Shown: piece by piece, positions 33,243 to 62,949 of the stretch
Numbering within the stretch: position 1 is the first letter of the stretch
How the letters are laid out: every line of letters starts with the position of its first letter
Source of the DNA: a bacterium SCSIO 12643
Lineage (GTDB): Bacteria > Bacteroidota > Bacteroidia > Flavobacteriales_G > Salibacteraceae
Assembly: GCA_024398135.1 (NCBI GenBank)
Contig: CP073750.1
Coordinates: 2,046,001 to 2,110,000 of the forward strand
Length of the DNA: 64,000 nt
Direction: 5' to 3'
The notes under the pieces: generated by a model
What the model saw: only the letters and a program-made list of their open reading frames with translations
The model's database searches: none
Told to the model about the DNA's origin: nothing
Position numbers and translations under genes: made by a program

Positions 33243-34997
33243 TTATTCTTGATCAAGAACTTGAACCTGTAAAGATAGTTCTTCCAATTGTTCCTCAGAA
33301 ATCACAGAAGGAGAATCAATCATGATGTCTCTTCCGGAATTGTTTTTTGGGAATGCGATAAAATCACGTATAGATTCCTGACCAGATATTACTGCGGCAA
33401 TTCGATCCAATCCAAAAGCGATACCACCATGAGGAGGTGCTCCATATTCAAAAGCATTTAATAAGAATCCGAATTGCTCTTCAGCTTCTTCTTTGGTAAA
33501 CCCTAACGCATCAAACATTTGACTTTGAATTGTTTTATCGTGGATTCTGATTGAACCACCGCCCAGTTCAACGCCATTGATCACCATATCGTATGCATTG
33601 GCATATACATTTTTTGGATCTGTTGCAAGTTTGTCCATGTCTTCAGGTACCGGAGAAGTGAATGGGTGGTGCATTGCGTGATATCTTTGGCTTTCTTCAT
33701 CCCATTCTAACAGTGGGAAATCAACAATCCAAAGAGGGGCAAAACCTTCATTACGTAAACCTAATCGATCACCCATTTCTAAACGTAAAACGTTCATGGC
33801 GTTTTGGGTTTCATTCAGTTTACCAGACATAATTAACATCAAATCACCAGGTTCAGCATTATCTAATGCGCCCCATGATTTTAAAACCTCAGGAGTGTAA
33901 AATTTATCTACAGATGATTTTGTTGTGCCGTCTTCATTGAACTTCACCCAAACCAACCCTTTGGCTCCAACCTGAGGGCGTTTCACAAAATCTATAAGTT
34001 TATCTAATTCTTTTCGAGAGTATCCGGCACAACCTTTTGCTACGATACCAATTACGGATTCTGCTTCGTCAAATATTTTGAAGTCGTGTCCTTTGGCTAA
34101 ATCCGTTAAATACTGGAATTGCATTGCAAAACGAATATCCGGTTTGTCAGAACCATATAAACGAATGGCATCGTCATATTTCATTCTTGGGAACTCCGGT
34201 AAATCTACATTCTTAAGTTGTTTGAACAGGTGTTTCGCCAATCCTTCAAAGGTTTGTAACACATCCTCTCTTTCTACAAATGCCATTTCACAATCAATCT
34301 GTGTGAATTCAGGTTGGCGATCTGCTCTTAAATCTTCATCTCTAAAGCATCTTACAATCTGGAAATAACGATCATAACCACTGATCATTAAAAGTTGTTT
34401 GAAGGTTTGTGGAGATTGAGGGAGTGCATAAAATTCACCTGAATTCATTCTGGAAGGAACGATAAAATCACGTGCCCCTTCCGGAGTAGATTTGATAAGG
34501 TATGGTGTTTCAATATCCAGGAAGTTTCTGCTATCTAAGAAATTCCGTGTTTCCAAAGTCAGCTTGTGACGTAAACGCATATTTTCTTGAAGAGGAGATC
34601 TTCTTAAGTCCAGATATCGATATTTCATTCTGATCTCTTCGCCTCCGTCTGTTTCATCTTCGATTGTAAATGGAGGTAAAGCAGACGCATTTAAAATCTC
34701 AAGTTTTTCAACCTTAATTTCGATATCTCCGGTAGGCATGTTTTTGTTTTTGCTGGACCTTTCAATAACCTCACCAGTAATAGAAATCACAAATTCGCGA
34801 CCTAATTTACCTGCCTCCTGACTTAATTCTTCATTATCCTCAAGGTTAAAGGCAAGTTGTGTAATACCATAGCGGTCACGCAAATCAACAAATGTCATTC
34901 CTCCTAATTTACGGGAACGTTGTACCCATCCAGAAAGGGTAACATTTTGACCAATATTGCTGATGTTTAATTCTCCACAAGTGTGCGTACGATACAT
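33243..34997 (-). CDS. aspS: Aspartate--tRNA ligase
   Basis: A 584-residue bacterial-type AspRS. The OB-fold (1-105, [27 protein letters not shown]) is followed by the class II core with motif 2 ([26 protein letters not shown]), the bacterial GAD insertion (about 270-420) and motif 3 ([28 protein letters not shown]) near residue 545. The length is right for the bacterial form. A promoter box lies 57 bp upstream. The lanthipeptide cluster begins immediately behind it in the opposite direction. Confidence 0.97.
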
Positions 34998-35053
34998 GAT
35001 TGTTTCTATTTTGATAAACGAATGAAATCGAATATTAAGATTTTCAAAGCGTG

Positions 35054-35061
35054 CAAAATTA
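35054..35061 (-). promoter_or_regulatory. Putative -7 promoter box of aspS
   Basis: The minus strand reads TAATTTTG, matching TAnnTTTG, 57 bp before the aspS start codon. Confidence 0.45.
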
Positions 35062-35157
35062 ATGGATTTTATGTATCATGTAAGCAAGGGAGAAAAAGAA
35101 TAGAATACAATTAGAATTATTTAGCAATAATGATATTGGATCATTCGTTTTTGATGT

Positions 35158-35165
35158 TAAATTTG
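35158..35165 (+). promoter_or_regulatory. Putative -7 promoter box at the start of the lanthipeptide cluster
   Basis: TAAATTTG matches TAnnTTTG and lies 63 bp before the start of the small HTH gene. The 230-bp intergenic region between aspS and this gene is very AT-rich and otherwise holds only the aspS promoter. Confidence 0.45.
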
Positions 35166-35227
35166 TTAATTGTGACTAAATATTTAATCTGCTACTAACT
35201 AAATAGCAAAAACTATAAACACTACCT

Positions 35228-35569
35228 ATGAATCAGTTGAAAGAACTTGAAACCCTTTGTGCTGTCCATGATGTTGTACGAAAACGTGTAAAAGGGACTG
35301 TATCTCAAATTGCAAATCATATAGGAATCTCCAGAAGTTGTTTCTACAATTATTTAGAAAGAATTAAAGATATGGGTGGGAATGTAGGTTATTCCAGAAC
35401 TTCACAGTGTTTTTATTATGAAAATGAATTTTTTCTGAAGGTTCAAATAGAAACGAGCGAGATGAATTATGTGATTGGTGGGAGAAAAAAAATAAAGTCC
35501 ATGAACTTTGGACGGAAGGAATATATATTTGGGTCACCAAAAGAGGATAACCTTTCTTTTGGGAGTTAA
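35228..35569 (+). CDS. Small helix-turn-helix protein, probable cluster regulator
   Basis: A 113-residue protein. Residues 20-50 (VKGTVSQIANHIGISRSCFYNYLERIKDMGG) form a winged-helix or HTH_11-like DNA-binding segment. The C-terminal half is short and basic (GGRKKIKSMNFGRKEY) and belongs to no family I know. No sensor domain is present, so it may be a one-domain regulator of the lanthipeptide genes directly downstream. That role is inferred from position. Its stop lies 194 bp before the precursor gene. Confidence 0.65.
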   Translation: MNQLKELETLCAVHDVVRKRVKGTVSQIANHIGISRSCFYNYLERIKDMGGNVGYSRTSQCFYYENEFFLKVQIETSEMNYVIGGRKKIKSMNFGRKEYIFGSPKEDNLSFGS

Positions 35570-35763
35570 CGAGAACAAGCAACAACCAAAAATTGTTTCA
35601 ACATCTTGAAAGAAAAAGGAAGTGCGGCAACACTCCCTTTTAAGACGCATCAAGTCAGGCTTGCCGGCTATGATTACGTGTGCATATCAGCAACTGTAGG
35701 GTGCCGAAAATGCAGAGGCAAAGGTATTTTTATTTTTAAGAGTAGGCCAAATAACTTATAACA
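35570..35763 (+). other. Leader region of the lanthipeptide precursor, possibly structured
   Basis: Between the HTH gene and the precursor lies a 194-bp stretch visibly less AT-rich in its middle than its surroundings. It contains an 11-bp stem AAAAGG-A-AGTG / CACT-C-CCTTTT (35617-35639, one mismatch, loop CGGCAA) followed by several short self-complementary segments. An in-frame 51-codon TTG-initiated reading frame (35606-35761) ends two bases before the precursor ATG, but I judge it more likely an untranslated regulatory leader. No close TAnnTTTG box was seen. Confidence 0.4.
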
Positions 35764-35964
35764 ATGAAAAAGTTAAAATTAACCGGAAAGTTATCTTTGA
35801 ATAAAGAGACTATTTCAAAATTAAATGATGAGCAAATGAATGATGTAAATGGTGGTAGAGGTAGCGGTAGTGATCGCTTATGCTCAAATATTCCATGTGC
35901 AACTACAGGATGTCCATCTATTGGAATAGTTTGCGAGCCAATTACTCCACGAATTAGTTCTTAA
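35764..35964 (+). CDS. Class I lanthipeptide precursor peptide (GG leader, four-Cys core)
   Basis: A 66-residue peptide. The leader (residues 1-31) has the Bacteroidota pattern KLKLTGKLSLNKETISKL, then NDEQMNDVNGG, with the double-Gly cleavage site at 30-31. The core, residues 32-66, has four Cys (40, 45, 50, 57) and nine Ser/Thr (34, 36, 41, 47, 48, 52, 61, 65, 66), so up to four thioether rings could form. LanB, LanC and a C39 exporter follow in the same direction. The leader motif and the gene set make the assignment strong; the ring pattern is not known. A perfect terminator follows the gene 15 bp after its stop. Confidence 0.88.
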   Translation: MKKLKLTGKLSLNKETISKLNDEQMNDVNGGRGSGSDRLCSNIPCATTGCPSIGIVCEPITPRISS

Positions 35965-35978
35965 TTATAGAATTTTTT

Positions 35979-36025
35979 GAAAATAGGTTGGTGTATTTAA
36001 CACCAACCTATTTTCTTTTTTATTT
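35979..36025 (+). terminator. Strong intrinsic terminator after the precursor gene
   Basis: A perfect 15-bp inverted repeat (35979-35993 with 36001-36015, arm GAAAATAGGTTGGTG) with a 7-nt loop is followed by a T-rich tract (36016-36025). Placed between the precursor and the modification genes, it should make the peptide mRNA far more abundant than the enzyme mRNA. The hairpin also covers an alternative upstream start of the next gene. Confidence 0.88.
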
Positions 36026-36038
36026 AAACCATCTATTT

Positions 36039-37256
36039 ATGAAGAGTGTATTAGTATTTGTAGTTTTCATTCACTTAACCATTCAGGCTTTTTCCCAGAT
36101 TTATGTAGACACACTGGTAAATCAGATGTATAAAATATCTGATTGTGATAGCCATTTAATATACTCAGAAATTGCTAAAATCGTAAAGGACAAAAGAATT
36201 GTAATACTGGGTGAAGCCGGCCACGGTGATGGCGGTGTTTTTGAATTAAAATCAGGTTTGATTAAATATTTAGTTGAAAACCATGGATTTAACACTGTGG
36301 CTCTGGAAGGAGCAGGATTCTTTGATTTCCAGTATATCCAGAATAATGTACCAGAAGTTGAAGGAATTCAAAGAGCGTATTTGGGTTGGGCTCCAATGTG
36401 GAAAGATGCTAAAGAGACTAGCGTATTAAATAAGCTTATAGAAGAAGGAAAAGTAAAGGCTTTTGGAATGGATTCGGAAATTAGTTACGGAGCTAGTTTG
36501 TTGCCTTATTATTTGAGTAAAATGTATTCATTCGATGGGATCGATATGGATAAACTCTATAAGCTTAACCGTAGATTATATAGGCAAGACAGTACATTGT
36601 CAGCCGAAGATTATAGAATGATTGATTCATCCTATATCGAGATTAAAAAAAGATTAGATACTATGACAATTGCCATGGATGTAAAGGAAATACTGTTACA
36701 GTCTGTGGATAATGCATTAGCACTTTCAGAAGAATATCATATTGTATTTATTGATAAGGATATGAGAGATTATGGAATTAATACAAGAGATCAACAAATG
36801 GCTAATAACATTATGTGGTTTCTTGAAAGAAACCCGAATGCTAAAATGATTATTTGGACGGCCAGTTTTCATGGCGCTACTAAAATTAAGGATATTGTAT
36901 ATGATGAAGAAGATCCTAAACTATATGATTTGTATGTCACTTTGGGAGAACATTTAAAGGAAAAATATAAAGAAGGAGTATATTCAATTGCCTATACTTC
37001 CGGAGGTGGAGTTGCGGGAATGTACTTAACCGGGCAGGAATTTCCTGTTGATCCATTTGAGGAAACATTAGAAAGTCAATTATATCAAAAACCCATATGT
37101 TTTGGATTTCTAAATTTCAATGGGTTGAACCTAAGTGAATCTAAACAATATCAAAGTATTCTTATGGGCTACAGATTAAAAAAAGGAATCTGGCAAAATG
37201 CGTTTGATGGGATTTTTTATTTAAGAACAAATCATGCAACCTCACGTAGAAAATAA
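36039..37256 (+). CDS. Exported erythromycin-esterase-like protein in the lanthipeptide operon
   Basis: A 405-residue protein with a signal peptide (1-20, AFSQ). The mature part shows the erythromycin esterase (EreA/ChaN-like) pattern: ILGEAGHGDGGVFELK near residue 55 with the His and Glu typical of the active site, then GFNTVALEGAGFFDF, DMRDYGINTRDQQMANNI and IIWTASFHGATK. Known Ere enzymes hydrolyse macrolactone rings. Here it is exported and sits between the precursor and LanC (6 bp gap to lanC), so it may tailor, degrade or give protection from the product; all three are inference. A start at 35988 would lie inside the terminator, so the ATG at 36039 was chosen. Confidence 0.78.
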   Translation: MKSVLVFVVFIHLTIQAFSQIYVDTLVNQMYKISDCDSHLIYSEIAKIVKDKRIVILGEAGHGDGGVFELKSGLIKYLVENHGFNTVALEGAGFFDFQYIQNNVPEVEGIQRAYLGWAPMWKDAKETSVLNKLIEEGKVKAFGMDSEISYGASLLPYYLSKMYSFDGIDMDKLYKLNRRLYRQDSTLSAEDYRMIDSSYIEIKKRLDTMTIAMDVKEILLQSVDNALALSEEYHIVFIDKDMRDYGINTRDQQMANNIMWFLERNPNAKMIIWTASFHGATKIKDIVYDEEDPKLYDLYVTLGEHLKEKYKEGVYSIAYTSGGGVAGMYLTGQEFPVDPFEETLESQLYQKPICFGFLNFNGLNLSESKQYQSILMGYRLKKGIWQNAFDGIFYLRTNHATSRRK

Positions 37257-37262
37257 CCTTAT

Positions 37263-38375
37263 ATGGAAGATAAAAGTAATTTAATTGATGAAATTTTCGA
37301 AAAGGTCGTTCGGTGGCATTTAAATCCAGAGAACAAAGATTATGGTCTTCTAACAGGGAAAACAGGCGAGTGTGTGTTTTTTTATAATCTATATACAAAG
37401 ACTGGGGAGGCCCGATTCATGGGGTATATAGGAGATTTTATTTCTGATGTGGTTTCTAATCCAGAAAAAATATTTAATAAGGTCACACTTTGTGATGGAG
37501 CTGCGGGTTTTGTTTGGTTTTTAAAATTTTTACAGCGAAATAAAGAGATTGAAAGTATCTATGATGTTATCGATAAGGATTTAACGAATTTTCTCTTTGA
37601 GTCTGCGGAAAAACAGTTTGATCGTGGGAATTGGGATTATATGCATGGTGCGTTGGGTATAATCTTGGCCTTAGCAGATGACGAACCTAGATTTATACAT
37701 TTAATGGAAGAAAAACTTCTAAGTCTTAAAAAAGAAGATGGAGGCGGTTTTATATGGGAATCTGAGATGTATGGAGATAAAATTAATTTGGGAATTGCGC
37801 ATGGTTTACCAAGTATCGTTTACTTTCTAGGGAAGTACAGAGAACATTTAACTAGTATAGATTCGATGTTCATTGATACGATATTGACTTCGGTGACGAA
37901 CTCTAAATTGGGACATGGTCATACCAGTTTATATCCCTCTTTTATGGGAGACGATTCCGTTTCAAGGTTGGGATGGTGTTATGGTGATATTTCTATTGGT
38001 TCCTCTTTATTAGATGTTAGTAAGCTAAATAAAAAAGCAGAAAATATTCTTTTAGAAACCGCCAGACATTCTATGTCCAGAAAAGATAAGTCGGATACGT
38101 TAATTGCGGATTCATGTATTTGTCACGGAACTGCAGGAGTAGAATTGATATACAATAAGTTTTATAAAAACTATACAGATCAAGGTTTTAAAGATTTTGC
38201 TCAGTATATGAATGCGGAGACGGGCAATTTATTACGGAAAAATAATTTTAAATTTTTTGATAGATATTCATCGGAATGGATGGAGAATTACTCTTTACTT
38301 GAAGGATTATCAGGGGTGGGTCTGGTATTGCTGGGAGTAGATAATGGATGGGATGAATGTATAATGCTAAGTTAA
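37263..38375 (+). CDS. LanC-family lanthionine cyclase
   Basis: A 370-residue cyclase with the zinc-binding residues of LanC: Cys239 in GWCYGD, and Cys287-His288 in ICHGTAG. The surrounding HGALGIILALAD and GIAHGLPSIVYFL repeats are those of the alpha/alpha toroid. It catalyses addition of Cys thiols to dehydroalanine and dehydrobutyrine, making the thioether rings. It starts 6 bp after the esterase-like gene and ends 6 bp before LanB, within one operon. The length is normal for LanC. Confidence 0.92.
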   Translation: MEDKSNLIDEIFEKVVRWHLNPENKDYGLLTGKTGECVFFYNLYTKTGEARFMGYIGDFISDVVSNPEKIFNKVTLCDGAAGFVWFLKFLQRNKEIESIYDVIDKDLTNFLFESAEKQFDRGNWDYMHGALGIILALADDEPRFIHLMEEKLLSLKKEDGGGFIWESEMYGDKINLGIAHGLPSIVYFLGKYREHLTSIDSMFIDTILTSVTNSKLGHGHTSLYPSFMGDDSVSRLGWCYGDISIGSSLLDVSKLNKKAENILLETARHSMSRKDKSDTLIADSCICHGTAGVELIYNKFYKNYTDQGFKDFAQYMNAETGNLLRKNNFKFFDRYSSEWMENYSLLEGLSGVGLVLLGVDNGWDECIMLS

Positions 38376-38381
38376 CTCTAT

Positions 38382-41300
38382 ATGAAATTGGAATTTGACA
38401 AATCATTAATCGTCAGGTCTCCATTATTGTCATTTAAAGAATCTTTAACCTTAAATGATTTAAAGAGTCTGTTTAATGATACGGTAATAATGGAAGCAAT
38501 ATTTCTTTCATCACCTGATCTCTACAATAGAATAAATGATTGGAAAAGTGGTTGTGATTTTTCCAAAGATGATGAGGGGAAATTGATAAACACCATGGTG
38601 AAATATGCGAGTAGAATGAATTCTCGATGTACACCATTTGGACTGTTCGCAGGATGTGTGGTTGCTACATTTTCTGAGTATACTGATATGAAGATTCATT
38701 CAGGGGCCAAAAAAAGAAGTACCAGATTGGATATGAATTATACGGGTGCGTTGGCGCAAAAAATAGCTAAAGAAGATTATATCCTGCCCAATTTAAAGTT
38801 TTACCCAAACACAAGTTTATATCATATAGCCAATAAATTAAGGTATGTAGAATATTACTATAAAGGGAAGTCTCGCATACATCAAATATCATCTGTGGAT
38901 AATTCTATTTATCTACAAAGAATAATTGATAAATCACAATCAGGGGCAACAAGAGTAGAGTTAATCGAGGAGTTGATTGATGATCAAATATCTTTTGATG
39001 ATGCAGCTGAATTTATTCATCAGGTTATAGAGTCTCAAATTTTGGTTAGTGACCTGGAACCTTGTGTCACTGGGGAAGAGTCGCTTGATCAAATTTTAAG
39101 TGCTTTGTCCAAAATGGATAAAGTCAGTAATAGTGTGCAGTTACCAGGATTGATCTTAGAATTAAATGATGTCAAAAGTAAATTAGCAGATTTGGACACC
39201 CGTACAGGGAATTTATCGGGAAGATATTTAGAAGTTCAAAAACAATTGGATTCGTTTAATATACCTATTGATAATGGAAAACTTTTTCAAACGGATCTAT
39301 ATCATATGCCGGTTGACTCTGAAATGACGATCACCAAAAACATTCAGAATCAATTACGAAAAACGATCGAAGTACTTAATTATTTAACCCCGTATCAAGA
39401 GAGTAGTAATTTAAAGGATTTTAAATCTAAGTTTAAAGAGAGATATAATGATCAGGCGGTTCCGTTATTAAAAGCTCTTGATTTGGAATGGGGAATTGGA
39501 TACGCACAAAATTCCGTATCCAGTGGAGAGGTTAATCCATTGATTAATGATTTGTTCTTACCGAAATTGGAGATACGAGAATCTCAAATAAAATGGGACC
39601 CGGTCCAAGAGTTTTTGCTGACAAAGCTGAATAAAGCACTCAATGAAAATAAGAAAGTTGTTCAGGTTGAGTTAGGTGAAGTAAGGCATTTAAAGAAACT
39701 TAACTATGATGATTTGCCTTTGACATTTTCTGTGAAATTTAGACATCTGTATAAAAAGGAAAGATCCGATTATTTGAAGATCGATAGTATTGGAGGTTCC
39801 AGTGGAATAAATCTATTAGGCCGGTTTGCATCATCAAATCAGCATATTGAAAATATTGTGGATGATCTGGCAAAGCATGAACAGAAAAAAACAAATGCAA
39901 TAATTGCAGAAATTGTACATCTACCAGAAAATCGAGTAGGCAATATTTTAATGCGCCCATCTTTTAGAGATTATGAGATTACCTATTTGTGTAATTCCAG
40001 TTTACCTCTGGAAAGACAAATAAAAGCAAGTGATATTTTGGTGTCTATTGTGAATGATAGAATAGTACTTCAGTCAAGAAAAGATGGAAGAGTTATTGTG
40101 CCAAAGCTTGGAAATGCGCATAATTACGCTACTAATTCGATGCCTGTATATCATTTTTTATGTGATGTGCAAAATCAAGGATTGAGAGGTGCGTTGGGGT
40201 TTTATTGGGGGGTGTTATCAGAACAATTTAAATTTTTACCAAGAGTAGAGATTGGAGATGTTGTGGTTTATCTGGCAACTTGGAGTTTATTAAAAAAAGA
40301 CTACCAGGATTTATGCGATAATCCTCAGAGCATTTCTATATGGCAAGAAAAATGGGGGGTTCCCAATCAAATTTTGCTAACCGATGGTGATAATGAACTC
40401 TATGTGAACTTAAAAGATACTTTAAGTTTAAATATGTTTTTATCAGAGATAAGAAAGCGAACATCTATCAAATTTGTTGAGTTTCTTTTTAAATCTGAAA
40501 ACGCGATAATCAAAGATGAGAAGAACAATTCTTATACGAATGAATTGATAGCAACGGTTAAGCGAAAGGTTACTGATACAAATGCTGAATTGGCTGTAAA
40601 TCCCCATAAAGGGTCGGATGAAAAAGGAGTAAGTCATTTTAATTTGGGATCGGAGTGGTTGTATTATAAAATTTATACAGGAACTAAAACTGCAGATATG
40701 ATTCTGACAGATGTGATCAAGCCATTAGTCGAATTTCTAAAACAAAAAAAGTGGATTGATTCATGGTTTTTTATCCGTTATGCAGATCCCGAACACCATC
40801 TTAGATTAAGATTCCATTTACCTGAAATAGATAAATTGGGATTGGTGATTTCTAAATTTAATGAGTCTTTCGAAGAATATGAAAACAATGGATCGATCTG
40901 GTCTATAAAAAATGATGTTTATGAGAGGGAAAACTCAAGGTATGGCTATAACTCTATTCACATAGCGGAACAAATATTTCATTGGGAAAGCGAGTGTATA
41001 ACCGATGTGATTGCTCATATTGAAGGTGATGAGGGGGAAGAGGTGAGATGGAAATTTGCGGTAAGAGCAGTGGATGACCTTATTGATATTTTTAAATATA
41101 CTCCTGAAGAAAAAAGAGATTTCATGGAGTGGTTAAAATCAGCTTTTGCAGAAGAATTCGGTATGGATCGATTCCTAAAAAAGCAAATGGATAAAAAGTT
41201 TAGGGAGCATCGGAATTTGTTAATTGAAGTATTAGATCGGAGTAAAGATCAATACTCAAATCACAAGACTTTATTAGAATTATTATCCAGAAAGAGAATG

Positions 41301-41516
41301 TTCTCACAGGGGTTGGTAGATGAGTTGTTGGAGATGCAACGTAACAATGAGTTGCACGTGAATATGCATGAATTATTGGCGAGTTTTATTCATATGCTGC
41401 TGAATAGATTATTTAAAAGTAAACAAAGAGTACATGAAATGGTTGTGTATGACTTTTTGTGGAGAACCTATCGTTCAGAAATAGCAAGACGAAGTAAGAT
41501 TAAAGAAAGTGTATAA
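38382..41516 (+). CDS. LanB-type lanthipeptide dehydratase (full length)
   Basis: A 1044-residue class I dehydratase. The N-terminal about 700 residues form the glutamylation domain, beginning IVRSPLLSFKES and including RMNSRCTPFGLFAGC near residue 78, a conserved LanB stretch. The C-terminal part from about residue 750 (HFNLGSEWLYYKIYTGTKTAD, WFFIRYADPEHHLRLRFH) is the SpaB_C elimination domain. Using glutamyl-tRNA it dehydrates core Ser/Thr. Both domains are in one chain, unlike the split LanB of some Bacteroidota clusters. It starts 6 bp after LanC. Confidence 0.93.
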   Translation: MKLEFDKSLIVRSPLLSFKESLTLNDLKSLFNDTVIMEAIFLSSPDLYNRINDWKSGCDFSKDDEGKLINTMVKYASRMNSRCTPFGLFAGCVVATFSEYTDMKIHSGAKKRSTRLDMNYTGALAQKIAKEDYILPNLKFYPNTSLYHIANKLRYVEYYYKGKSRIHQISSVDNSIYLQRIIDKSQSGATRVELIEELIDDQISFDDAAEFIHQVIESQILVSDLEPCVTGEESLDQILSALSKMDKVSNSVQLPGLILELNDVKSKLADLDTRTGNLSGRYLEVQKQLDSFNIPIDNGKLFQTDLYHMPVDSEMTITKNIQNQLRKTIEVLNYLTPYQESSNLKDFKSKFKERYNDQAVPLLKALDLEWGIGYAQNSVSSGEVNPLINDLFLPKLEIRESQIKWDPVQEFLLTKLNKALNENKKVVQVELGEVRHLKKLNYDDLPLTFSVKFRHLYKKERSDYLKIDSIGGSSGINLLGRFASSNQHIENIVDDLAKHEQKKTNAIIAEIVHLPENRVGNILMRPSFRDYEITYLCNSSLPLERQIKASDILVSIVNDRIVLQSRKDGRVIVPKLGNAHNYATNSMPVYHFLCDVQNQGLRGALGFYWGVLSEQFKFLPRVEIGDVVVYLATWSLLKKDYQDLCDNPQSISIWQEKWGVPNQILLTDGDNELYVNLKDTLSLNMFLSEIRKRTSIKFVEFLFKSENAIIKDEKNNSYTNELIATVKRKVTDTNAELAVNPHKGSDEKGVSHFNLGSEWLYYKIYTGTKTADMILTDVIKPLVEFLKQKKWIDSWFFIRYADPEHHLRLRFHLPEIDKLGLVISKFNESFEEYENNGSIWSIKNDVYERENSRYGYNSIHIAEQIFHWESECITDVIAHIEGDEGEEVRWKFAVRAVDDLIDIFKYTPEEKRDFMEWLKSAFAEEFGMDRFLKKQMDKKFREHRNLLIEVLDRSKDQYSNHKTLLELLSRKRMFSQGLVDELLEMQRNNELHVNMHELLASFIHMLLNRLFKSKQRVHEMVVYDFLWRTYRSEIARRSKIKESV

Positions 41517-41525
41517 CAAAGTGTA

Positions 41526-43739
41526 ATGGGATTTCCTTTTTATCGTCAACCTGACAAAATGGACTGTGGTCCAACCTGTTTGCGTATTATATCAAAGCAC
41601 TATGGACGTAATGTATCTTTAAATAGACTTAGGGAATTGTCAGAAACTACGAGGGCGGGATCTTCTTTAAGAAATATTTCTGATGCCGCTGAAAAAATTG
41701 GGTTTCGAACACTTGGTGCAAAATTAGATCTGGTGAAACTGAAAGAGGAAGCTCCGCTGCCTTGTATTGTTTTCTGGCAACAACAACACTTTGTTGTTGT
41801 ATATAAGATCAAAAAGAATACGGTTTATGTTTCTGATCCCGCGCATGGATTACTTGAGTATAGTAAAGAGGAGTTTATAAAAAACTGGATAGGTTTAAGC
41901 GCAATTGAAAGTTCAGGTGAAGGAATTGCGTTATTGCTAGAACCTACTCCTCAGTTTATGGAGGATGAAGAAAATGATAAAGAAGTAAATAAGGGGTTCC
42001 GATTTTTATATAAATATCTATTTAGGTATAAAAGCTTTTTGGTTCAATTGGCAATTGGATTATTGGCAGGAAGTATTTTGCAATTAATATTTCCGTTTTT
42101 AACACAAAGTGTTGTAGATATTGGTATTCAAAATCAAGATATACACTTTGTTTATTTAATATTAATAGCGCAGTTGTTCTTGTATTTTGGGAAAACTGCT
42201 ATCGATATAATCAGAGGTTGGATTTTTTTGCATTTAAGTGCTCGAATAAATATATCCTTAGTTTCTGATTTTTTTATCAAGTTGATGAAGTTACCTATTT
42301 CATTCTTTGATGTGAAAATGACTGGTGATCTGATGCAACGTATTAATGATCATGAACGTATTGAAAACTTACTTACTTCAACCTCTTTGAATGTATTGTT
42401 TTCATTTTTTAACCTAATTGTATTTGGTGGAGTCCTGGCATGGTATGATCTATCGATTTTTGCGATTTTCTTTATTGGTAGCTCACTTTATGTGTTGTGG
42501 GTAATTCTTTTTCTAAAGCGAAGAAAAGATCTCGATTATAAAAGGTTTTCTCAAATGAGTGATGAGCAAAGTAAAATTATGGAGCTTATTAATGGAATGC
42601 AAGAGATTAAATTGCATAATGCAGAAAGACAAAAAAGGTGGGGGTGGGAATACGTGCAGGCTAGATTGTTTAGAGTGTCTATGAAAAGTTTAGTATTACA
42701 ACAAACTCAAATAATTGGTTCAGGATTTATAAACGAAATAAAGAATATATTCATAAGTATATTCTCTGCAAAACTGGTTATTGATGGCCAAATTACTTTA
42801 GGTATGATGATGTCGATTTCCTATATTATTGGTCAATTGAATAGTCCAATTGAACAGTTGATAGGTTTTGTGTACTCTGTTCAGGATGCAAAGATTTCTC
42901 TGGAACGTTTATCAGAAATTCATAACAAAGAAGATGAGGAAGGTTTGCCGGGTGTGGATGGAACAAATGAGAAGGTTGTTGAAATTCCCCTAGATTCAGA
43001 TTTTGCATTAGATCAGGTTTGTTTTAGATATGTTGGTAGTACGTATGAAGTGATTAAGGGGGTGGACCTGGAGATTCCGGCAAACAAAATTACTGCTATT
43101 GTTGGCGCAAGTGGTAGTGGGAAAACTACTCTAATGAAGATGCTTCTGAAGTTTTATGAGCCCACAGAAGGAGATATAAAGATTGGGAGATTCAATTTAC
43201 AGAATGTATCACAAAAATATTGGAGGGAAATGTGTGGAGTAGTAATGCAAGAAGGGTATATATTTAATGATACGATAGCAAATAATATTGCAATTGGGGA
43301 AACGGTGATCGATAAGGAGAAGTTGAAACGAGCTGTTGAAATTGCCAATATAGAAGACTTTATAGAAGGATTACCTCTGGGGTATAACACTAAAATAGGA
43401 ATGGAAGGAATTGGTATGAGTACGGGGCAAAAACAGCGTTTATTGATTGCCCGTGCAGTGTATAAAGATCCAAAGTTTATCTTTTTTGATGAAGCTACAA
43501 GCGCACTCGATGCAAAGAATGAAAGTATTATTATGAATAACTTAAATACTTTTTTTAGAAAAAGAACTGCTGTTGTAATAGCGCATCGTTTGAGTACGGT
43601 TAGAAATGCAGATCAAATAGTGGTTTTAGATCAAGGTAGAATTATTGAGAGAGGTACCCATGAAGAGTTGGTGAGCCTAAGAGGAAGTTATTATACATTA
43701 GTTAAAAATCAGCTTGATTTAGAAAAAATTAATGCCTAG
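41526..43739 (+). CDS. C39-peptidase ABC exporter (LanT-like)
   Basis: A 737-residue bifunctional transporter. The N-terminal C39 peptidase has Gln8, Cys14 (KMDCGPTC), His88 (QQHFVVVY) and Asp104 (SDPAHG), the expected active-site set for cleavage after double Gly. About six membrane segments follow (170-440). The ATPase domain has Walker A GASGSGKT at 527-534, the signature MSTGQKQRLLIARA and Walker B FIFFDEATSALD. It should remove the leader at Gly30-Gly31 of the precursor and export the product. It overlaps its adaptor gene by 8 bp. Confidence 0.95.
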   Translation: MGFPFYRQPDKMDCGPTCLRIISKHYGRNVSLNRLRELSETTRAGSSLRNISDAAEKIGFRTLGAKLDLVKLKEEAPLPCIVFWQQQHFVVVYKIKKNTVYVSDPAHGLLEYSKEEFIKNWIGLSAIESSGEGIALLLEPTPQFMEDEENDKEVNKGFRFLYKYLFRYKSFLVQLAIGLLAGSILQLIFPFLTQSVVDIGIQNQDIHFVYLILIAQLFLYFGKTAIDIIRGWIFLHLSARINISLVSDFFIKLMKLPISFFDVKMTGDLMQRINDHERIENLLTSTSLNVLFSFFNLIVFGGVLAWYDLSIFAIFFIGSSLYVLWVILFLKRRKDLDYKRFSQMSDEQSKIMELINGMQEIKLHNAERQKRWGWEYVQARLFRVSMKSLVLQQTQIIGSGFINEIKNIFISIFSAKLVIDGQITLGMMMSISYIIGQLNSPIEQLIGFVYSVQDAKISLERLSEIHNKEDEEGLPGVDGTNEKVVEIPLDSDFALDQVCFRYVGSTYEVIKGVDLEIPANKITAIVGASGSGKTTLMKMLLKFYEPTEGDIKIGRFNLQNVSQKYWREMCGVVMQEGYIFNDTIANNIAIGETVIDKEKLKRAVEIANIEDFIEGLPLGYNTKIGMEGIGMSTGQKQRLLIARAVYKDPKFIFFDEATSALDAKNESIIMNNLNTFFRKRTAVVIAHRLSTVRNADQIVVLDQGRIIERGTHEELVSLRGSYYTLVKNQLDLEKINA

Positions 43740-45099
43740 TCAAATGATCCATACTACGAAAGAATCGGAAGTAATTGAGGTTCGAAATCAGGAAACACCT
43801 GAGTTTGTTGTGGAAAGACGTTCAAGAATTGATGAAATTAGATCAGATGAAGTGCAGGAAATTTTAAATCGGTTACCGTCCTGGACAGTTAGATGGGGGA
43901 TGACATTGATTTTTTGTTTGATTTTGATTTTGATAACTTTTTCATGGATTGTCAAGTATCCGGATATTATTAAAGCTCCAATGGTATTAAGTACTGAGAA
44001 CCCACCGGTGCGTTTGATAAGCAAGGTCTCGGGTAAAATAGTTAGTTTGGAAAGAGCTAATGGAGATATTGTTTCTATGGGAGAAAAGTTGGGGCTAGTA
44101 GAAAGTCCAATATCCCTTGAAGAAGGGAACTATTTAAAAAATTATATCAGAGAAGTTAATATCCTTTTAATTGATAGCACACACAGTTTACCTCAAATAA
44201 AACCAGAATTTGCTTTTGGGGAGCTTCAACAGGCATTTAATCAGTTAAGTAAATCTTGTTTTGAATATCAGAAACTGCAACGCAATAATTATGAGAGGCA
44301 AAGAATGAATTCTTTACAAGATAAAATTGATAAATACGAGAAGGTTCGCGTAATTACTAAAAGGCAATTGAGAATTGCAGAATTGGATTTAAAAAATGTA
44401 AAATATGTTTTAGATGAAAATGTTATCCTGTTTGAAAATGGTACAATTTCAAAAATGGAACTATTTGCTGAGGAAAGTAAATATCATCAGAAACAGATGG
44501 AAATAGAGAGTTTAAACAAGTCGATAGCAGAAATGGATGTCAACTTGAGTAATTTGAATCAAGAACTAGCTGATTTAAAATATAATTATTTGGATAAGGT
44601 TTTGGTTTTAAAAAATGACATTAGTCTGTATGTCAATAGTATTCAGAGTGGTTTGGAGAGTTGGAAGTTTAACTATGAAATTTCAGCACCTGTTAATGGT
44701 AGATTAGTCTATTTGTCGCATTGGAAGAAAAATGAGTATATTAATTCTTCAACCCCATTATTTGCTGTTATTCCAGAAAATGAGGAGTTTGTCGCGAATT
44801 TAAAAGTGCCTTCAAATGGATATGGAAAGATTAAAGTGGGACAAAAAGTGAGGTTAAGTTTAAGCAGTTTTCCGTCTACAGAGTTTGGTTATTTGGAAGG
44901 AGAAGTATCCAGATTAAATGAAATATCTAATCAGGGTGAATATTTGGCTGAGGTTAGATTGATAAATGGAATGAAGAGCAGCTACAATATAAATCTGGAG
45001 TTTACTCCAGAGATGGAAGGAGTCGCTGATGTGATTACTGATGATCTAAGAATATTAGAAAGGCTGTTCATTCAGTTCAATAAATTAACGCAACGATAA
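43732..45099 (+). CDS. HlyD-family secretion adaptor of the lanthipeptide exporter
   Basis: A 455-residue membrane fusion protein: cytoplasmic N-terminus (1-50), one membrane segment (about 52-75, MTLIFCLILILITFSWIV), a split lipoyl/beta-barrel region (FEISAPVNGRLVYLSHWKK and GYGKIKVGQKVRLSLSSFP) and a long central coiled coil (about 150-310). It spans the periplasm to link the C39 exporter with an outer-membrane TolC channel. The start ATG overlaps the exporter gene; an ATG at 43744 is also possible. No TolC gene is in the cluster, but one lies at 51.9 kb. Confidence 0.9.
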   Translation: MPSQMIHTTKESEVIEVRNQETPEFVVERRSRIDEIRSDEVQEILNRLPSWTVRWGMTLIFCLILILITFSWIVKYPDIIKAPMVLSTENPPVRLISKVSGKIVSLERANGDIVSMGEKLGLVESPISLEEGNYLKNYIREVNILLIDSTHSLPQIKPEFAFGELQQAFNQLSKSCFEYQKLQRNNYERQRMNSLQDKIDKYEKVRVITKRQLRIAELDLKNVKYVLDENVILFENGTISKMELFAEESKYHQKQMEIESLNKSIAEMDVNLSNLNQELADLKYNYLDKVLVLKNDISLYVNSIQSGLESWKFNYEISAPVNGRLVYLSHWKKNEYINSSTPLFAVIPENEEFVANLKVPSNGYGKIKVGQKVRLSLSSFPSTEFGYLEGEVSRLNEISNQGEYLAEVRLINGMKSSYNINLEFTPEMEGVADVITDDLRILERLFIQFNKLTQR

Positions 45100-45108
45100 T
45101 TGGTTATT

Positions 45109-45813
45109 TTAAACGTTAAAGGGTGTCATTTCCATATCAAAAATTCTTTGAAAATGAACCTGAAGTTTATCTTTTACTTCCTGCATATCAACCTCTCGAC
45201 CTAATTCTCTTTGCAATGAAGTAACATCTTTATCTACAATACCACACGGAACAATATTGCCAAAATATTCTAAATTGGTATTTACATTTAATGCGAATCC
45301 ATGCATGGTTACCCAACGAGAGGTCTTAACTCCAATGGCACATATTTTTCTCTCTTGTGGAGTTCCAGGATCAATCCATACACCAGTATATTTTTCAAAT
45401 CGTTCCCCTTTGATGCCATATTCAGCACATAATTGGATTACAGCCTCTTCAATATTTCTAAGATATAGGTGTATGTCTGGTTTGAATTGATCTAAATCTA
45501 GGATAGGATAACCTACTAATTGACCTGGGCCATGATAAGTAATATCACCACCCCTATTAATTTTATAAAATGTAGCCTCTTTATCTTCAAGACCTTGTTC
45601 GTCTAATAATAGATTGTCTAAAGATCCACTTTTTCCAAGCGTATAGACATGTGGATGTTCAACGTAGAAAAAGTAATTTTTCGGAGAAGTAGGCTGTTCA
45701 CTTTTTATGTTTTTCAGTTTAAGCTCAACACTTTCTTTGAAGATTTCCTCCTGAAAATCCCAGGCTTCCTGGTAATCCAATTTACCTAAATCTTTGAAAA
45801 ATACTTTTGGCAT
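45109..45813 (-). CDS. lipB: Lipoyl(octanoyl) transferase LipB
   Basis: A 234-residue acyltransferase that moves octanoate from acyl-carrier protein to lipoyl domains. Signatures: GGDITYHGPGQLVGYPILDL around residue 88, ERKICAIGVK with the catalytic Lys, and NIVPCGIVDKDVTSL with the catalytic Cys. The length is normal. It is the last gene on the minus strand here and converges with the HlyD adaptor with only 9 bp between stops. Confidence 0.95.
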   Translation of the reverse strand: MPKVFFKDLGKLDYQEAWDFQEEIFKESVELKLKNIKSEQPTSPKNYFFYVEHPHVYTLGKSGSLDNLLLDEQGLEDKEATFYKINRGGDITYHGPGQLVGYPILDLDQFKPDIHLYLRNIEEAVIQLCAEYGIKGERFEKYTGVWIDPGTPQERKICAIGVKTSRWVTMHGFALNVNTNLEYFGNIVPCGIVDKDVTSLQRELGREVDMQEVKDKLQVHFQRIFDMEMTPFNV

Positions 45814-59375: not shown

Positions 59376-59450
<75 letters not shown>

Positions 59451-59460
59451 AAATAGGAAT

Positions 59461-59694
59461 ATGTAAATCAGAATAATTATCTTATTGTTTTGATTTACAT
59501 CAACTTAAATCTTATTCTCAACGGTTCGACTTCCCCGAACAGTTCTAGTATCACATATTGAATTATCAGTAATGATGTTGTTAATCAATACTTTAAGGGT
59601 TCGGTTCTTATAAGCTTTTTTTTTGAAGTCTTTAGGTATTATTAAATATCTAATTGTAAATGTTTGTAGTCGTTTGTAATTATTTAAATAGGAT
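59461..59694. repeat. Repeated leader, copy 1 (with 17-bp hairpin)
   Basis: About 230 bp strongly similar to 61438-61670 and more distantly to 63010-63160. It begins with a 40-nt hairpin (59461-59500, 17-bp stem allowing two wobble pairs, 6-nt loop) 11 bp after tRNA-Ala, continues with the shared segment CCGAACAGTTCTAGTATCAC and ends with CGTTTGTAATTATTTAAAT about 35 bp before the DUF4304 gene. Confidence 0.8.
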
Positions 59695-59730
59695 GATTAC
59701 ATTTAGCCACTTGTTGTACACCATAATGAG

Positions 59731-60450
59731 ATGACTACACAAGAGTTTAAGAAACAAACGGGCAAATATCTAGGAGCAAAAATTCGTGAATTGGGATTCA
59801 AAGGCTCTGGTTTCAATTATATAATGGATTCAGACAATTATGTATTCACAATAGGAATTCAAGCAAATCGATATGGAGGTAGTTTTTGTGTAGAATTGGG
59901 AGTTCATCCTAAGAAAATAACATCTAATGGGTTTGAAGATTTAGATTTTAAAAAACTCAAATATTACAACTGTGAATTTAGGACAAGACTTGCAAGAGAA
60001 GGAAAAGGTGACAAGTGGTGGAATTACACAAACTCAGAATCAAAAAACCTTCAACTCATTGACGAAGTTCTCATTTATATTGAAAAGTATGCCTTACCTA
60101 TAATCGATGGTTTCATAAAAGACAAAGACCTATTGGAGAAGGTCAAAATAACAGATTTAAAAAATAGATTCATTCCAATCCCAGACTACAAAAGTGGTTT
60201 AACACCAATGATTTCTGATATACGGTTAGCTTGGGTTTTAGCTGTTGAACTTGAAGATATCAATCATGAGAAATCATTTGAATTTGCTAAATATGCTTTA
60301 TCAAATGATAAATCGCCAAGTAACTTTTTTGGAAATACCGACTTACAAAGAATACTTAAATCCTATAATTACAGTTCAGGCAAAGGAAAAACATCTCAAG
60401 ATAAAATGAACTTTTGGACAAGACTTACAGGTAAATTGAAAAACAAATAA
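59731..60450 (+). CDS. DUF4304-like protein (cassette 1)
   Basis: A 239-residue soluble protein. The start MTTQEFKKQTGKYLGAKIRELGFKG, the following GSGFNYIMDSDNYVFTIGIQ and GGSFCVELGVHP match DUF4304, a family scattered in many genomes and often in accessory regions; the function is unknown. It is followed 6 bp later by the first palindromic element, the arrangement seen with every gene in this stretch. There is no signal peptide. Confidence 0.75.
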   Translation: MTTQEFKKQTGKYLGAKIRELGFKGSGFNYIMDSDNYVFTIGIQANRYGGSFCVELGVHPKKITSNGFEDLDFKKLKYYNCEFRTRLAREGKGDKWWNYTNSESKNLQLIDEVLIYIEKYALPIIDGFIKDKDLLEKVKITDLKNRFIPIPDYKSGLTPMISDIRLAWVLAVELEDINHEKSFEFAKYALSNDKSPSNFFGNTDLQRILKSYNYSSGKGKTSQDKMNFWTRLTGKLKNK

Positions 60451-60453
60451 ATA

Positions 60454-60678
60454 CGGTGTACAACATGGTATATAGCAAATAGGGCGTTTAGTGGTTTACG
60501 AAAGTTCTGTGCTATCTACCAACACCGCCAACGCGAAGCCTCACCGCAGGTAAATCGTTGATTTGGCCTTTAAAATGAATAAGATAAAAACAAAATACAA
60601 CGTTTTGGCTCAGTGCAAACTCGAAAGTTTATCGCTTTCTACTGCCCTACTTGCCATATACTAACCGTTGTGTGTAAT
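60454..60678. repeat. Palindromic intergenic element A (long imperfect inverted repeat)
   Basis: The left arm (60457-60484, ACAACATGGTATATAGCAA then ATAGGGC) pairs with the right arm (60644-60673, GCCCTACTTGCCATATAC then TAACCGTTGTG) at about 21 of 26 positions. The 160-bp centre is GC-richer, with short self-complementary parts. The element resembles an integron attC site in layout, but its ends do not match the consensus core exactly. It fills most of the 309-bp gap before the next gene; the remaining 80 bp is AT-rich and otherwise unremarkable. Confidence 0.65.
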
Positions 60679-60759
60679 TAAACTTATTTATTCAAAGAGA
60701 ATAACAATAATATTATGAATCATTAACTGTTTTTAAAGACGAAAACAAAATTACAATCT

Positions 60760-61245
60760 ATGGATTTTTATAATAAATACGCGGTTTACTTTGGAATTTT
60801 ATTCGTCATATCAATGTTTATAGAACAAGCTTTTTGTATTCTGATTTTGGGGATTTTAATTGGAATAATTTCGATTGAATCACTGTTTATTAGAATTACT
60901 CTTAATAGAATAGGTGTAAAGTGTAACGGTGAAATTGATGGGATAGAATCGGATAATGAAAACTTCAAAACTCCAAAAATTAAATTTAAGACTTTAGAAA
61001 ATGAAGAAATAATTGGAACCCCTTCGTTGTATGTTTCTACAAGTTTTAGCCAAGTTCAATCTTATAAGTCTAAAATCGGAAGAGAAATCCCAATAATCTA
61101 CAATCCCAATAACCCAATAAAGTTTGAACTATATAATGAAAAAGGATATGGTACTATAGGAATTATTGTTACGGGTATCTTGTCCTTTGGATTGCTAATT
61201 CTCGGAACTCTTGAACTTACAGGTATTATCAATAAATTCAATTAA
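60760..61245 (+). CDS. DUF3592-like membrane protein (cassette 2)
   Basis: A 161-residue protein with hydrophobic segments at about 8-24, 25-48 and 132-155. Between them is an exported or cytoplasmic beta-rich domain (KIKFKTLENEEIIGTPSLYVS...GREIPIIYNPNNPIKFELY), the DUF3592 pattern. The function is unknown. It lies between element A and the next element arm at 61261, 15 bp after its stop. Confidence 0.7.
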   Translation: MDFYNKYAVYFGILFVISMFIEQAFCILILGILIGIISIESLFIRITLNRIGVKCNGEIDGIESDNENFKTPKIKFKTLENEEIIGTPSLYVSTSFSQVQSYKSKIGREIPIIYNPNNPIKFELYNEKGYGTIGIIVTGILSFGLLILGTLELTGIINKFN

Positions 61246-61260
61246 TTTCTTTAAAAACTA

Positions 61261-61286
61261 CGCACAACAATCGCTATATGGAATTC
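61261..61286. repeat. Element arm C (left-arm-like, partner not found)
   Basis: CGCACAACAATCGCTATATG then GAATTC resembles the left arms of elements A and B and follows the DUF3592-like gene by 15 bp. No convincing right arm was found. In its place, 80 bp on, lies the 60-nt repeat at 61367-61426. Confidence 0.45.
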
Positions 61287-61366
61287 TTCATAATGCTGTA
61301 CTTTCTTTTAACTACGTATTCGCTTCCGGAAACACATTAAACATGGCGTAACATTAAGATCTATAA

Positions 61367-61426
61367 ATCCTCTCTCAACAAATAAATCTCACGTAATTGG
61401 TTCGACATAGTTCCTATCGTCTCCAC
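61367..61426. repeat. 60-nt repeat with tRNA-Ala 3'-end-like sequence, copy 2
   Basis: It is 54/60 identical to 62950-63009. Its second half contains GGTTCGAC and ends TCTCCAC, as do the T-loop and acceptor end of the intact tRNA-Ala at 59427-59450, and it is followed by the same hairpin. The match to the tRNA is partial. Confidence 0.55.
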
Positions 61427-61437
61427 TGAAATGAAAA

Positions 61438-61670
61438 ATGCAAACCAGAATAATCTTGTATTATTCTGGTTTACATTAAATTAAGCTACATTCTGATTGG
61501 TTCGATTTTCCCGAACAGTTCTAGTATCACATATTGAATTACTAGCAATAATGTTGTTAATCAATGTTTTAATGATTCGATTCCTATAAGCTTTTTTTTG
61601 AAGTCTTTGGGTATTATTAAATATCTAATTGTAAATGTTAGTTGTCGTTTGTAATTATTTAAATTAGATT
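61438..61670. repeat. Repeated leader, copy 2 (with covarying hairpin)
   Basis: Second copy of the leader at 59461-59694. The hairpin (61438-61476, 17 bp with one mismatch and a 5-nt loop) keeps its pairing although the sequence differs: T-A in copy 1 is C-G here, and two wobble pairs become standard ones. The remainder aligns with few changes up to GTAATTATTTAAAT. With 61246-61437 it accounts for the gene-free stretch before 61719. Confidence 0.8.
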
Positions 61671-61718
61671 ATTATTTTCAAGTACAAGTTAGAAACCATC
61701 ACCGCTTAATTTATAAAA

Positions 61719-62198
61719 ATGAGAAACCAATTCTTCACACTTATCATTCTAATTCTGGGACTATTTAACTATTCGTTTGTGAACACCAATTCAGAACAGA
61801 ATCCTATTGAATGTAAATCCTTAGATATAGGTTGTTTACAAATAGGAGGTGAAAATTCTGGAGAACTTATTATAAGAACCAATGAAGAATATCAGAGATT
61901 ACTTCTAAGGCGCTCCCCTCATTCGGACTGTGGAAATTATGAATTACCACTAATTGATTTCAATAATCACATATTAATTGGATATATCAAGGGATTTAAA
62001 GGATGTAAGGAACCAATTGCTAATCATACAATATCCGAAGTAAATGGAACAATTCAATTTAATGTGGAAGTTGAAGAATTAGGAGCATGCAAGCGCCTTA
62101 ACTGGGTGACAATTTGGTGTATGGTAAATAAAACCGAAGAAAATCCAACGGTTAGCTTTAAAGAAACAATTACAACTAACGTCAATTATAAAAATTAA
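61719..62198 (+). CDS. Exported protein of unknown function (cassette 3)
   Basis: A 159-residue protein with a signal peptide (about 1-21, FNYSFVNTNS). The mature part includes several Cys (CKSLDIGCLQIGG, SDCGNYELP, KGCKEP, GACKR, WCMVN), possibly disulfide-bonded in the periplasm. No family was recognised. It is preceded by leader copy 2 and followed by element B, 48 bp after its stop. The sequence is AT-rich like the rest of the array. Confidence 0.6.
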   Translation: MRNQFFTLIILILGLFNYSFVNTNSEQNPIECKSLDIGCLQIGGENSGELIIRTNEEYQRLLLRRSPHSDCGNYELPLIDFNNHILIGYIKGFKGCKEPIANHTISEVNGTIQFNVEVEELGACKRLNWVTIWCMVNKTEENPTVSFKETITTNVNYKN

Positions 62199-62244
62199 CG
62201 GTAAAAAAGAAAATAGAATTGAGTGTTGAATCTGGCGAGAAAAA

Positions 62245-62437
62245 CGGTTGCTAACAATCGCTATATATAATGCTCCGTTTAAATCTAAACACTACGCTTC
62301 TAATTCATTTCACGATAAAGTGTATTTTAGCTTTTAAACCGATAAAAACTTAAAAAACTAAACATTACCTGCACGTGCGTATCCGAAGCCTTCGCCTTTC
62401 GAAAACGTACTATACATAGCGGGGACGTTGGCAAACA
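62245..62437. repeat. Palindromic intergenic element B
   Basis: The left arm (62246-62273, GGTTGCTAACAATCGCTATA then TATAATGC) is the imperfect inverse of the right arm (62407-62436, GTACTATACATAGCGGGGAC then GTTGGCAAAC). The middle has its own GC-richer core (GCACGTGCGTATCCGAAGCC). The next gene begins 7 bp after the right arm. Confidence 0.65.
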
Positions 62438-62443
62438 TTTAAA

Positions 62444-62890
62444 ATGAACTCCATGCTTAAAACATTAATTTTCATACCAATCTTAATATTGACCGTCAAT
62501 TTAGCACAAGGACAAACTTACAATTACGATTACATTTTTAACGAATGGAAAGAAGGTGAAATTGATATAAATGAAAATGTAAGTGATGGAGGTACACGAA
62601 GAGGAGGTTGGGATTTTTTGACAATTAATAAGGACAGCACCGTGATTTATGCTGGTGCTTTTACTTGTGGTTTTGGCTCCAAAAGAATAGGTACTTGGAC
62701 TCTTGACAAGCAAAATAATATAATCACCTTTTTATTTAAGAATACTGAAGGATACATAAACAATCCTGAAAATGGTGAAATTGATCTTACAGAAACTTAT
62801 CTTATAAAAAAATTGAATGAGACCGAGTTAATACTAATTCATCAAAACGGAAATCCGCCAATACAAATAGGATTCTTTGCAAACCAATAA
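62444..62890 (+). CDS. Exported protein of unknown function (cassette 4)
   Basis: A 148-residue protein with a signal peptide (1-23, LAQGQ). The mature part has GGWDFLTINKDSTVIYAGAF and RIGTWTLDKQNNIITFLFKN, a beta-rich pattern close to the lipocalin-like proteins common in Bacteroidota. I give no family name. An ATG at 62453 is an alternative start. The gene sits 7 bp after element B and is followed 12 bp later by another left-arm-like sequence. Confidence 0.6.
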   Translation: MNSMLKTLIFIPILILTVNLAQGQTYNYDYIFNEWKEGEIDINENVSDGGTRRGGWDFLTINKDSTVIYAGAFTCGFGSKRIGTWTLDKQNNIITFLFKNTEGYINNPENGEIDLTETYLIKKLNETELILIHQNGNPPIQIGFFANQ

Positions 62891-62901
62891 TTAAAACAAT
62901 T

Positions 62902-62927: not shown

Positions 62928-62949
62928 TTGTTCTCGCCTACTCCTGAAA

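Follow-up and report, generated by a model that had tools for sequence, protein, structure and literature searches.

We describe here a 64,000-nt stretch of bacterial DNA, referred to as the window (contig CP073750.1 of GCA_024398135.1, positions 2,046,001-2,110,000, forward strand), and an operon in it that combines class I lanthipeptide genes with a gene of the erythromycin esterase (Ere) family. Seven genes occupy 35228-45099, all on the plus strand, in the order HTH-lanA-ere-lanC-lanB-c39T-hlyD (HTH, helix-turn-helix) according to the list of open reading frames (ORFs). The features are as follows.

33243-34997, minus strand: aspS, housekeeping gene of the left flank (ORF; congener G001 has an 87% identical aspS after lipB)
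35228-35569, plus strand: small HTH protein, probable regulator (HTH matches below cut-off only; homologues in other loci)
35764-35964, plus strand: lanA, precursor (NF038153)
35764-35856, plus strand: lanA leader, 31 amino acids with NGG at the end (NF038153, 53.1 bits, cut-off 22)
35857-35961, plus strand: lanA core, 35 amino acids, of which 4 are Cys and 9 are Ser/Thr (read from the sequence; composition count)
35979-36015, plus strand: 16-bp terminator-like hairpin between lanA and the enzyme genes, with a T run after it (fold -23.9 kcal/mol, z -7.7)
36039-37256, plus strand: ere, erythromycin-esterase-like, signal peptide by eye, predicted periplasmic (PF05139; residues; fold)
37263-38375, plus strand: lanC, cyclase (PF05147; WCYG and CHG motifs; 8byk alignment)
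38382-41516, plus strand: lanB, full-length dehydratase with glutamylation and elimination domains (PF04738, PF14028; 9g04)
41526-43739, plus strand: c39T, C39 peptidase-ABC (ATP-binding cassette) exporter of the PCAT (peptidase-containing ABC transporter) type (Pfam; 4ry2; DCGPTCL, HFVV, and DPA motifs)
43732-45099, plus strand: hlyD, HlyD-family adaptor (HlyD_3, 42 bits, cut-off 22.2; TIGR01843, 87 bits, under its cut-off)
45109-45813, minus strand: lipB, housekeeping gene of the right flank (ORF; present in 34 of 35 genomes of the family)

The preliminary description of this DNA had proposed a complete class I lanthipeptide gene set in one direction, with a GG-leader precursor, gaps of 10 bp or less from the esterase gene onward, and aspS and lipB as flanks, and the analysis bears out each of these points. 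Family scores and motifs agree, the intergenic gaps from ere to hlyD are 6, 6, and 9 bases followed by an 8-base overlap, and 9 bases separate the end of lipB from the hlyD stop codon. The ATG at 36039 opens the apparent signal peptide of ere, and a TTG at 35988 is also a possible start. The same seven genes in identical order are found in genome G008 (locus L073), and this order together with the family scores excludes a chance arrangement. LanB is matched once in the source genome, which consists of one contig of 4.12 Mb. The HTH protein matches no family above cut-off; a homologue is at the same position in L073, and others adjoin other genes for ribosomally synthesized and post-translationally modified peptides (RiPPs) in L137, L202, and L204.

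The LanB protein (1044 residues) matches PF04738 (441 bits) and PF14028 (226 bits) in one chain and aligns with the structure 9g04 (E = 6e-53), which we take to be MadB. Columns that are invariant with five other LanB proteins, e.g., R78, R82, T84, D117, R799, R808, R810, E850, R853, and H1004, presumably match the catalytic residues of NisB. LanC scores 121 bits against PF05147, aligns with the LanC structure 8byk, and carries WCYG at residue 238 and CHG at residue 287, which presumably bind zinc. The exporter joins C39 (126 bits), ABC membrane (108 bits), and ABC_tran (98 bits) domains; its residues 6-727 match the bacteriocin transporter 4ry2, and the three motifs listed above presumably hold the catalytic residues.

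To judge from these families, the operon very probably makes and exports a class I lanthipeptide. The HTH gene, as the putative regulator, and lanA would lead the operon; LanB would dehydrate Ser/Thr residues of the core through glutamyl esters, LanC would close up to four thioether rings, and the C39 domain would cut after GG before the ABC exporter and HlyD send the peptide out. The operon is of a kind that is already described in Bacteroidota (PMC7268733; here and below, articles are cited for the part of their text that was available).

The Ere protein and its association with RiPP genes

The part of the operon that deserves attention is the esterase gene, which had been treated in the preliminary description as one gene among others. 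That it is esterase-like holds: the product scores 58.5 bits against PF05139 (cut-off 26.4). A signal peptide is apparent on reading of the sequence, and neither a lipobox nor a sorting tail is visible on that reading. Against the EreA, EreB, and EreD models, the scores are 23.1, 34.3, and 18.4 bits (cut-offs of 750, 750, and 800, respectively), and by sequence the protein is far from these curated macrolide esterases. Its predicted structure matches EreC (6xcq) with a Foldseek E-value of 1.8e-12 at 18% identity, and superposition on EreC and its Bacillus cereus relatives gives Z-scores of 17.5-18.6 over 256-285 residues (RMSD 4.4-9.0). Lower Z-scores are obtained with ChaN (10.7; 182 residues, RMSD 3.9) and HopBA1 (10.3; 177 residues, RMSD 5.2), both of which are Tiki-superfamily proteins (PMC6254334).

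EreC acts without a metal through E47, H50, E78, R261, and H289 (PMC7979712). The window protein has E59, H62, E90, R250, and H278 at the same spacings (3, 28, 28), and all five residues are invariant in ten aligned Ere proteins. H62, E90, R250, and H278 are also invariant in eight complete RiPP-linked Ere proteins, and E59 is replaced by Gln in the graspetide-linked Ere of genome G499. By its profile, modeled fold, and residue set, the protein is assigned to the erythromycin esterase family. Among 395 genomes of the phylum, the closest Ere is that of genome G118 (33% identical), and its neighbors have no evident tie to RiPPs.

In the class sample of 395 genomes, LanB (PF04738) occurs at 54 places in 41 genomes and Ere (PF05139) at 79 places in 66 genomes. 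From these place counts, 0.06 Ere-LanB neighbors would be expected within 5 kb, and 4 were observed; when the window is left out, 3 were observed versus 0.055 expected (P = 2.6e-5). The three are in G008, G728 (lanC-ere-CarbopepD_reg-lanB), and G603 (lanA-ere-lanC-lanB). The 80 named LanB loci add Chryseobacterium sp. LAM-KRS1 (lanA-lanC-lanB-ere, with ere truncated at the end of the locus) and Taibaiella chishuiensis (lanC-ere-lanB), and genome G714 contains two more cases. In G499 (L257, 8729-15042), Ere is encoded by the last gene of a grasp-with-spasm operon, in which TIGR04192 (279 bits) and TIGR04193 (310 bits) are matched over their cut-offs. The RiPP-linked Ere genes thus total nine loci, i.e., eight lanthipeptide loci and one of the grasp-with-spasm (graspetide) type; L142 (Vicingaceae metagenome-assembled genome [MAG] JAHYJH010000065) repeats G728 and is counted once.

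Two of these genomes have further peculiarities. The G714 cases are lanA-lanA-ere (L281, 7582-9552), near which neither lanB nor lanC was found, and ere-lanC (L273, 8725-11120), near which lanB was not found; the LanB of this fragmented genome is on a third contig, and the system is perhaps scattered. In L257, two uncharacterized proteins of 533 and 277 residues are encoded between the maturases and Ere; the smaller of the two gives a "lanB" match below cut-off (19.7 bits, cut-off 24.4), which was disregarded.

At least 7 of 68 Ere genes in the class sample adjoin RiPP genes, and 61 have no RiPP gene nearby by the profiles used. The 7 are a lower bound, as the neighbor search consisted of profiles for LanB, LanC, exporter, HlyD, and HTH and one leader pattern. 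It covered 68 of the 79 PF05139 places; several contigs are short, and L250 has no Ere ORF by profile. Weak HlyD or ABC matches in L222, L232, and L247 were left out of the count, as were L163 and L210, where Ere is near LanB yet outside its operon.

A tree was built from 37 Ere proteins, leaving out L036, which duplicates the Ere of the window, and the partial L197. A single clade of the five lanthipeptide-linked proteins in it was rejected by the approximately unbiased test (p-AU 0.00013, to be read with caution in view of long branches), and Ere was therefore probably recruited more than once.

Other hydrolases are found near lanB in sister operons, most of them with an apparent signal peptide. 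These are S41 peptidases (L094, L095, L104, L111, L115, and L117), S9 prolyl oligopeptidases (L102, L107, L197, L200, and L205), an S33-like hydrolase (L119), another alpha/beta hydrolase (L116), and an aspartyl protease with a PDZ domain (L171). A search with home-made profiles for five hydrolase types places one of them no more than three genes away from lanB in 21 of 132 LanB loci. The 132 loci are those of 138 copies kept as distinct, and a LanB run was limited to three linked same-strand genes on each side; the S41 gene of L115 is outside this limit, and overlapping loci may count one gene twice.

Possible functions of Ere

Class I lanthipeptides of Gram-negative bacteria are numerous and hardly characterized, and the means by which the producers avoid self-harm are, to our knowledge, unclear. 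A hydrolase recurring in the operons is a concrete candidate for immunity or maturation. There is a good probability that Ere belongs to the lanthipeptide pathway, and it seems somewhat likely that it acts on the peptide itself, either in self-protection or in trimming. The protein would be an Ere/Tiki-superfamily hydrolase that resides in the periplasm, activates water by means of His/Glu, and is dedicated to the lanthipeptide; its most likely task would be self-protection of the producer through cleavage of peptide re-entering the periplasm. The explanation as a whole, with Ere as a self-protection hydrolase acting on the exported peptide, is the best that we can offer and is proposed tentatively.

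A maturation enzyme, i.e., a LanP-like second peptidase that trims the peptide after the C39 cut, is possible but rather unlikely. The Ere/Tiki superfamily includes peptidases (PMC6254334), S41 and S9 peptidases are encoded near lanB in related operons, and in graspetide loci, Ere homologues have been suggested to serve in modification or resistance, and Tiki/TraB and other peptidases in leader cleavage or maturation (PMC8939145). However, the GG leader should already be removed by the C39 exporter, and the HlyD conduit should bypass the periplasm; moreover, a similar operon in G025 has no Ere in its sequenced part, although that contig begins inside the first precursor. The predicted periplasmic location of Ere and the HlyD type of the exporter together slightly favor self-protection over trimming.

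That Ere is a passenger with no tie to the pathway, such as an enzyme conferring general resistance to macrolides or other compounds, is improbable. The 61 of 68 Ere genes without a RiPP gene nearby by the profiles used and the surroundings of the closest Ere in G118 would fit such a passenger, but ere is separated from lanC by 6 bases, its order is repeated in G008, nine RiPP-linked loci are known, the Ere-LanB association holds without the window, and the scores against the EreA, EreB, and EreD models are far below the cut-offs. A role in editing, in which the esterase would strip residual glutamyl esters from Ser/Thr where elimination in the exported peptide was incomplete, is very improbable: Ere enzymes are esterases (PMC7979712) and class I dehydratases glutamylate Ser/Thr before elimination (PMC9993889), but LanB should be cytoplasmic whereas Ere has a signal peptide, and Ere is also found in the G499 grasp-with-spasm operon, where no full LanB was found.

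Several observations weigh against Ere as a self-protection hydrolase or against a wider role of the family in RiPP operons. The structural model is of modest confidence (pLDDT 59, pTM 0.60). If HlyD mediates direct export, a periplasmic Ere would miss the outgoing peptide, which counts against trimming and only mildly in favor of immunity. Ere is a minority feature, being present in 5 of 132 LanB loci (the Ere of L204, whose LanB is cut by the locus end, is outside this count). On the tree, the linked Ere proteins are partly clustered, with 3 label changes (of which the starred branches force 2) compared with a mean of 4.8 after shuffling and values as low in 3 of 500 shuffles, and the branches are long. 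Some linked members perhaps share an origin; the alternatives are that the linkage arose two or three times or that a single gain was followed by losses of it. The threefold excess of hydrolases near lanB (21 of 477 genes in LanB runs versus 20 of 1327 elsewhere in the same loci) is modest and partly circular, because four of the five profiles (S41, S9, S33-like, and aspartyl protease) were seeded with lanB neighbors.

With these reservations, secreted Ere/Tiki hydrolases may form a recurrent class of RiPP accessory proteins in Bacteroidota, recruited more than once and acting, in immunity or trimming, on exported lanthipeptides or graspetides, with S41, S9, and other secreted hydrolases used instead in sister lanthipeptide operons; we put this forward as a working proposal. 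The link ties a macrolide-destroying family to RiPP pathways and would bear on the origin of such resistance enzymes.

Precursors, export genes, and genomic site

The calculated mass of the unmodified window core is 3546.705 Da, and each dehydration would lower it by 18.011 Da, to 3384.610 Da for nine. Precursors of sister loci have well-conserved leaders and very different cores (117 pattern matches, some of them evidently chance). In G692, L089 (13207-18737) contains ten lanA-like pattern matches, two of them overlapping, with strongly varied cores upstream of one lanC-lanB-c39T set. The hairpin analysis covered 86 precursors from the 117 matches, each with a distinct 75-base stretch and no more than 5 kb upstream of lanB, lanC, or ere; a 3' hairpin with z of -3 or lower is present in 32, and z is above -2 in 49. 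In the multiprecursor arrays L213, L193, L175, L172, and L196, the last precursor has a hairpin, and in L124 the last one is without it. The second precursor of L073, one of these 49, has a z of -1.4, yet a stem is present in a longer stretch. The terminator-like scan of the window overall is near chance (6 sites versus 4.8 in shuffles), and the hairpin after lanA therefore rests on its own fold z-score. Partial termination at this hairpin would leave the precursor in excess over the enzymes. A promoter-like scan gave fewer sites than chance (39 versus 47.7 in shuffles) and was not used.

The window exporter is 72% identical to the exporters of G008 and G025, and the LanB proteins are 27-32% identical. 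A mosaic operon with module swapping was rejected, as the exporter is simply more conserved than LanB across the 25 loci listed with both genes (50-72% and 27-42% identical to the window, respectively). The window LanB nevertheless resembles LanB proteins from MAGs of other families (42-44%) more closely than it does the G008 protein, and exchange between families is possible on this comparison. Genome G003 has three related exporter-adaptor pairs (L136, L137, and L138; exporter identity of 50-64%), one of which adjoins a grasp-with-spasm operon with the same HTH family as the window and another a VKOR/thioredoxin/C39 protein and Cys-rich GG precursors. By these gene neighborhoods, exporters of this C39-ABC type also serve other RiPP chemistries.

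The preliminary description had also taken the cluster to look like an insertion between aspS and lipB, which is mostly borne out. LanB is found in 4 of 35 genomes of the family and in 4 of 42 of the order; it was not found in the other two genomes of this genus, both of which are drafts (91% and 95% complete). In congener G001, whose flanking proteins are 79% (lipB) and 87% (aspS) identical to those of the window, the lipB-aspS interval is approximately 2.1 kb and contains an AAA/DUF4143 ORF in place of the cluster; in congener G002, a different ORF follows lipB and the contig then ends. No aspS was found in the 1.4-8.3 kb beyond lipB that were read in five less closely related members of the family. 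The G008 operon is at another place, with one further precursor upstream and an ORF beside it that we read as an oxoacid dehydrogenase. The cassette thus recurs at different genomic places. Marks of a recent insertion were not obtained: neither edge region was found to contain direct or inverted repeats of at least 14 bases, the edges 34998-35764 and 45061-45130 share no word of 8 bases or more, and the composition is not strongly shifted (G+C of 0.33-0.345 in the cluster genes versus 0.354-0.37 in the rest of the window). A gain at aspS-lipB in this lineage is likely, as the simplest reading, with loss in the congeners as a possible alternative; the claim of an insertion rests on the two draft congeners.

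Elsewhere in the window, only two tRNAs were matched by Rfam at the gathering score. After tRNA-Ala (59376-59450), the region 59400-64000 is a repeat-rich gene array, in which repeated noncoding units (e.g., 141 and 108 nt, 82-84% identical and ~1975 bases apart) lie between small ORFs of 159-239 residues; one of these is a DUF4304 protein, one is weakly DinB-like below cut-off, and two have no family over cut-off. At 9679-14169, a 1496-residue chitinase with GH18, GH19, and CBM5/12 domains is encoded, which has a sub-cut-off match to a type IX secretion tail.

Comparison with known systems

The class I precursors of Bacteroidota in PMC7268733 have LxLxKx5L/GG leaders and occur with C39 proteases, and the window operon is like these systems in leader type, GG site, C39 protease, LanB, and LanC. 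The main text of that article has no match to "esterase" or PF05139 (its supplementary tables were outside the search). Pinensins are likewise class I lanthipeptides from Bacteroidetes, but their LanB is split (PMC7268733) and that of the window is full-length. Class I lanthipeptides of Chryseobacterium OV715 and Runella limosa have been expressed in Escherichia coli (PMC9993889), the latter being LanI-101 in PMC9576775. They are alike in that LanA, LanB, and LanC of Bacteroidota give dehydrated, thioether-ringed peptides and unlike in strains and cores; "esterase" has no match in the main texts of these two articles. The LanB at a Runella limosa locus, L173, which may or may not be the published cluster, is 33% identical to the window LanB. 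In the open literature, judged mainly by titles and the starts of abstracts and with supplements outside the search, no description of Ere in lanthipeptide operons was found, and as far as these searches go, the Ere-bearing operon is an undescribed variant of a known operon kind.

The window Ere shares with EreC and EreA the fold and the residues of the E47/H50/E78/R261/H289 type at the same spacings (PMC7979712). It differs from EreC in sequence (18% identity), in its signal peptide, and in its position in a peptide operon. A precedent for the gene context is in PMC8939145, which notes two graspetide loci of Gammaproteobacteria that encode an Ere homologue together with a double-glycine peptidase, and other loci with Tiki/TraB peptidases, the functions being described as unclear. 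As in the window, a member of the Ere family there adjoins a RiPP enzyme and a double-glycine peptidase; the modifying enzyme is of the ATP-grasp type in those loci and LanBC in the operon described here.

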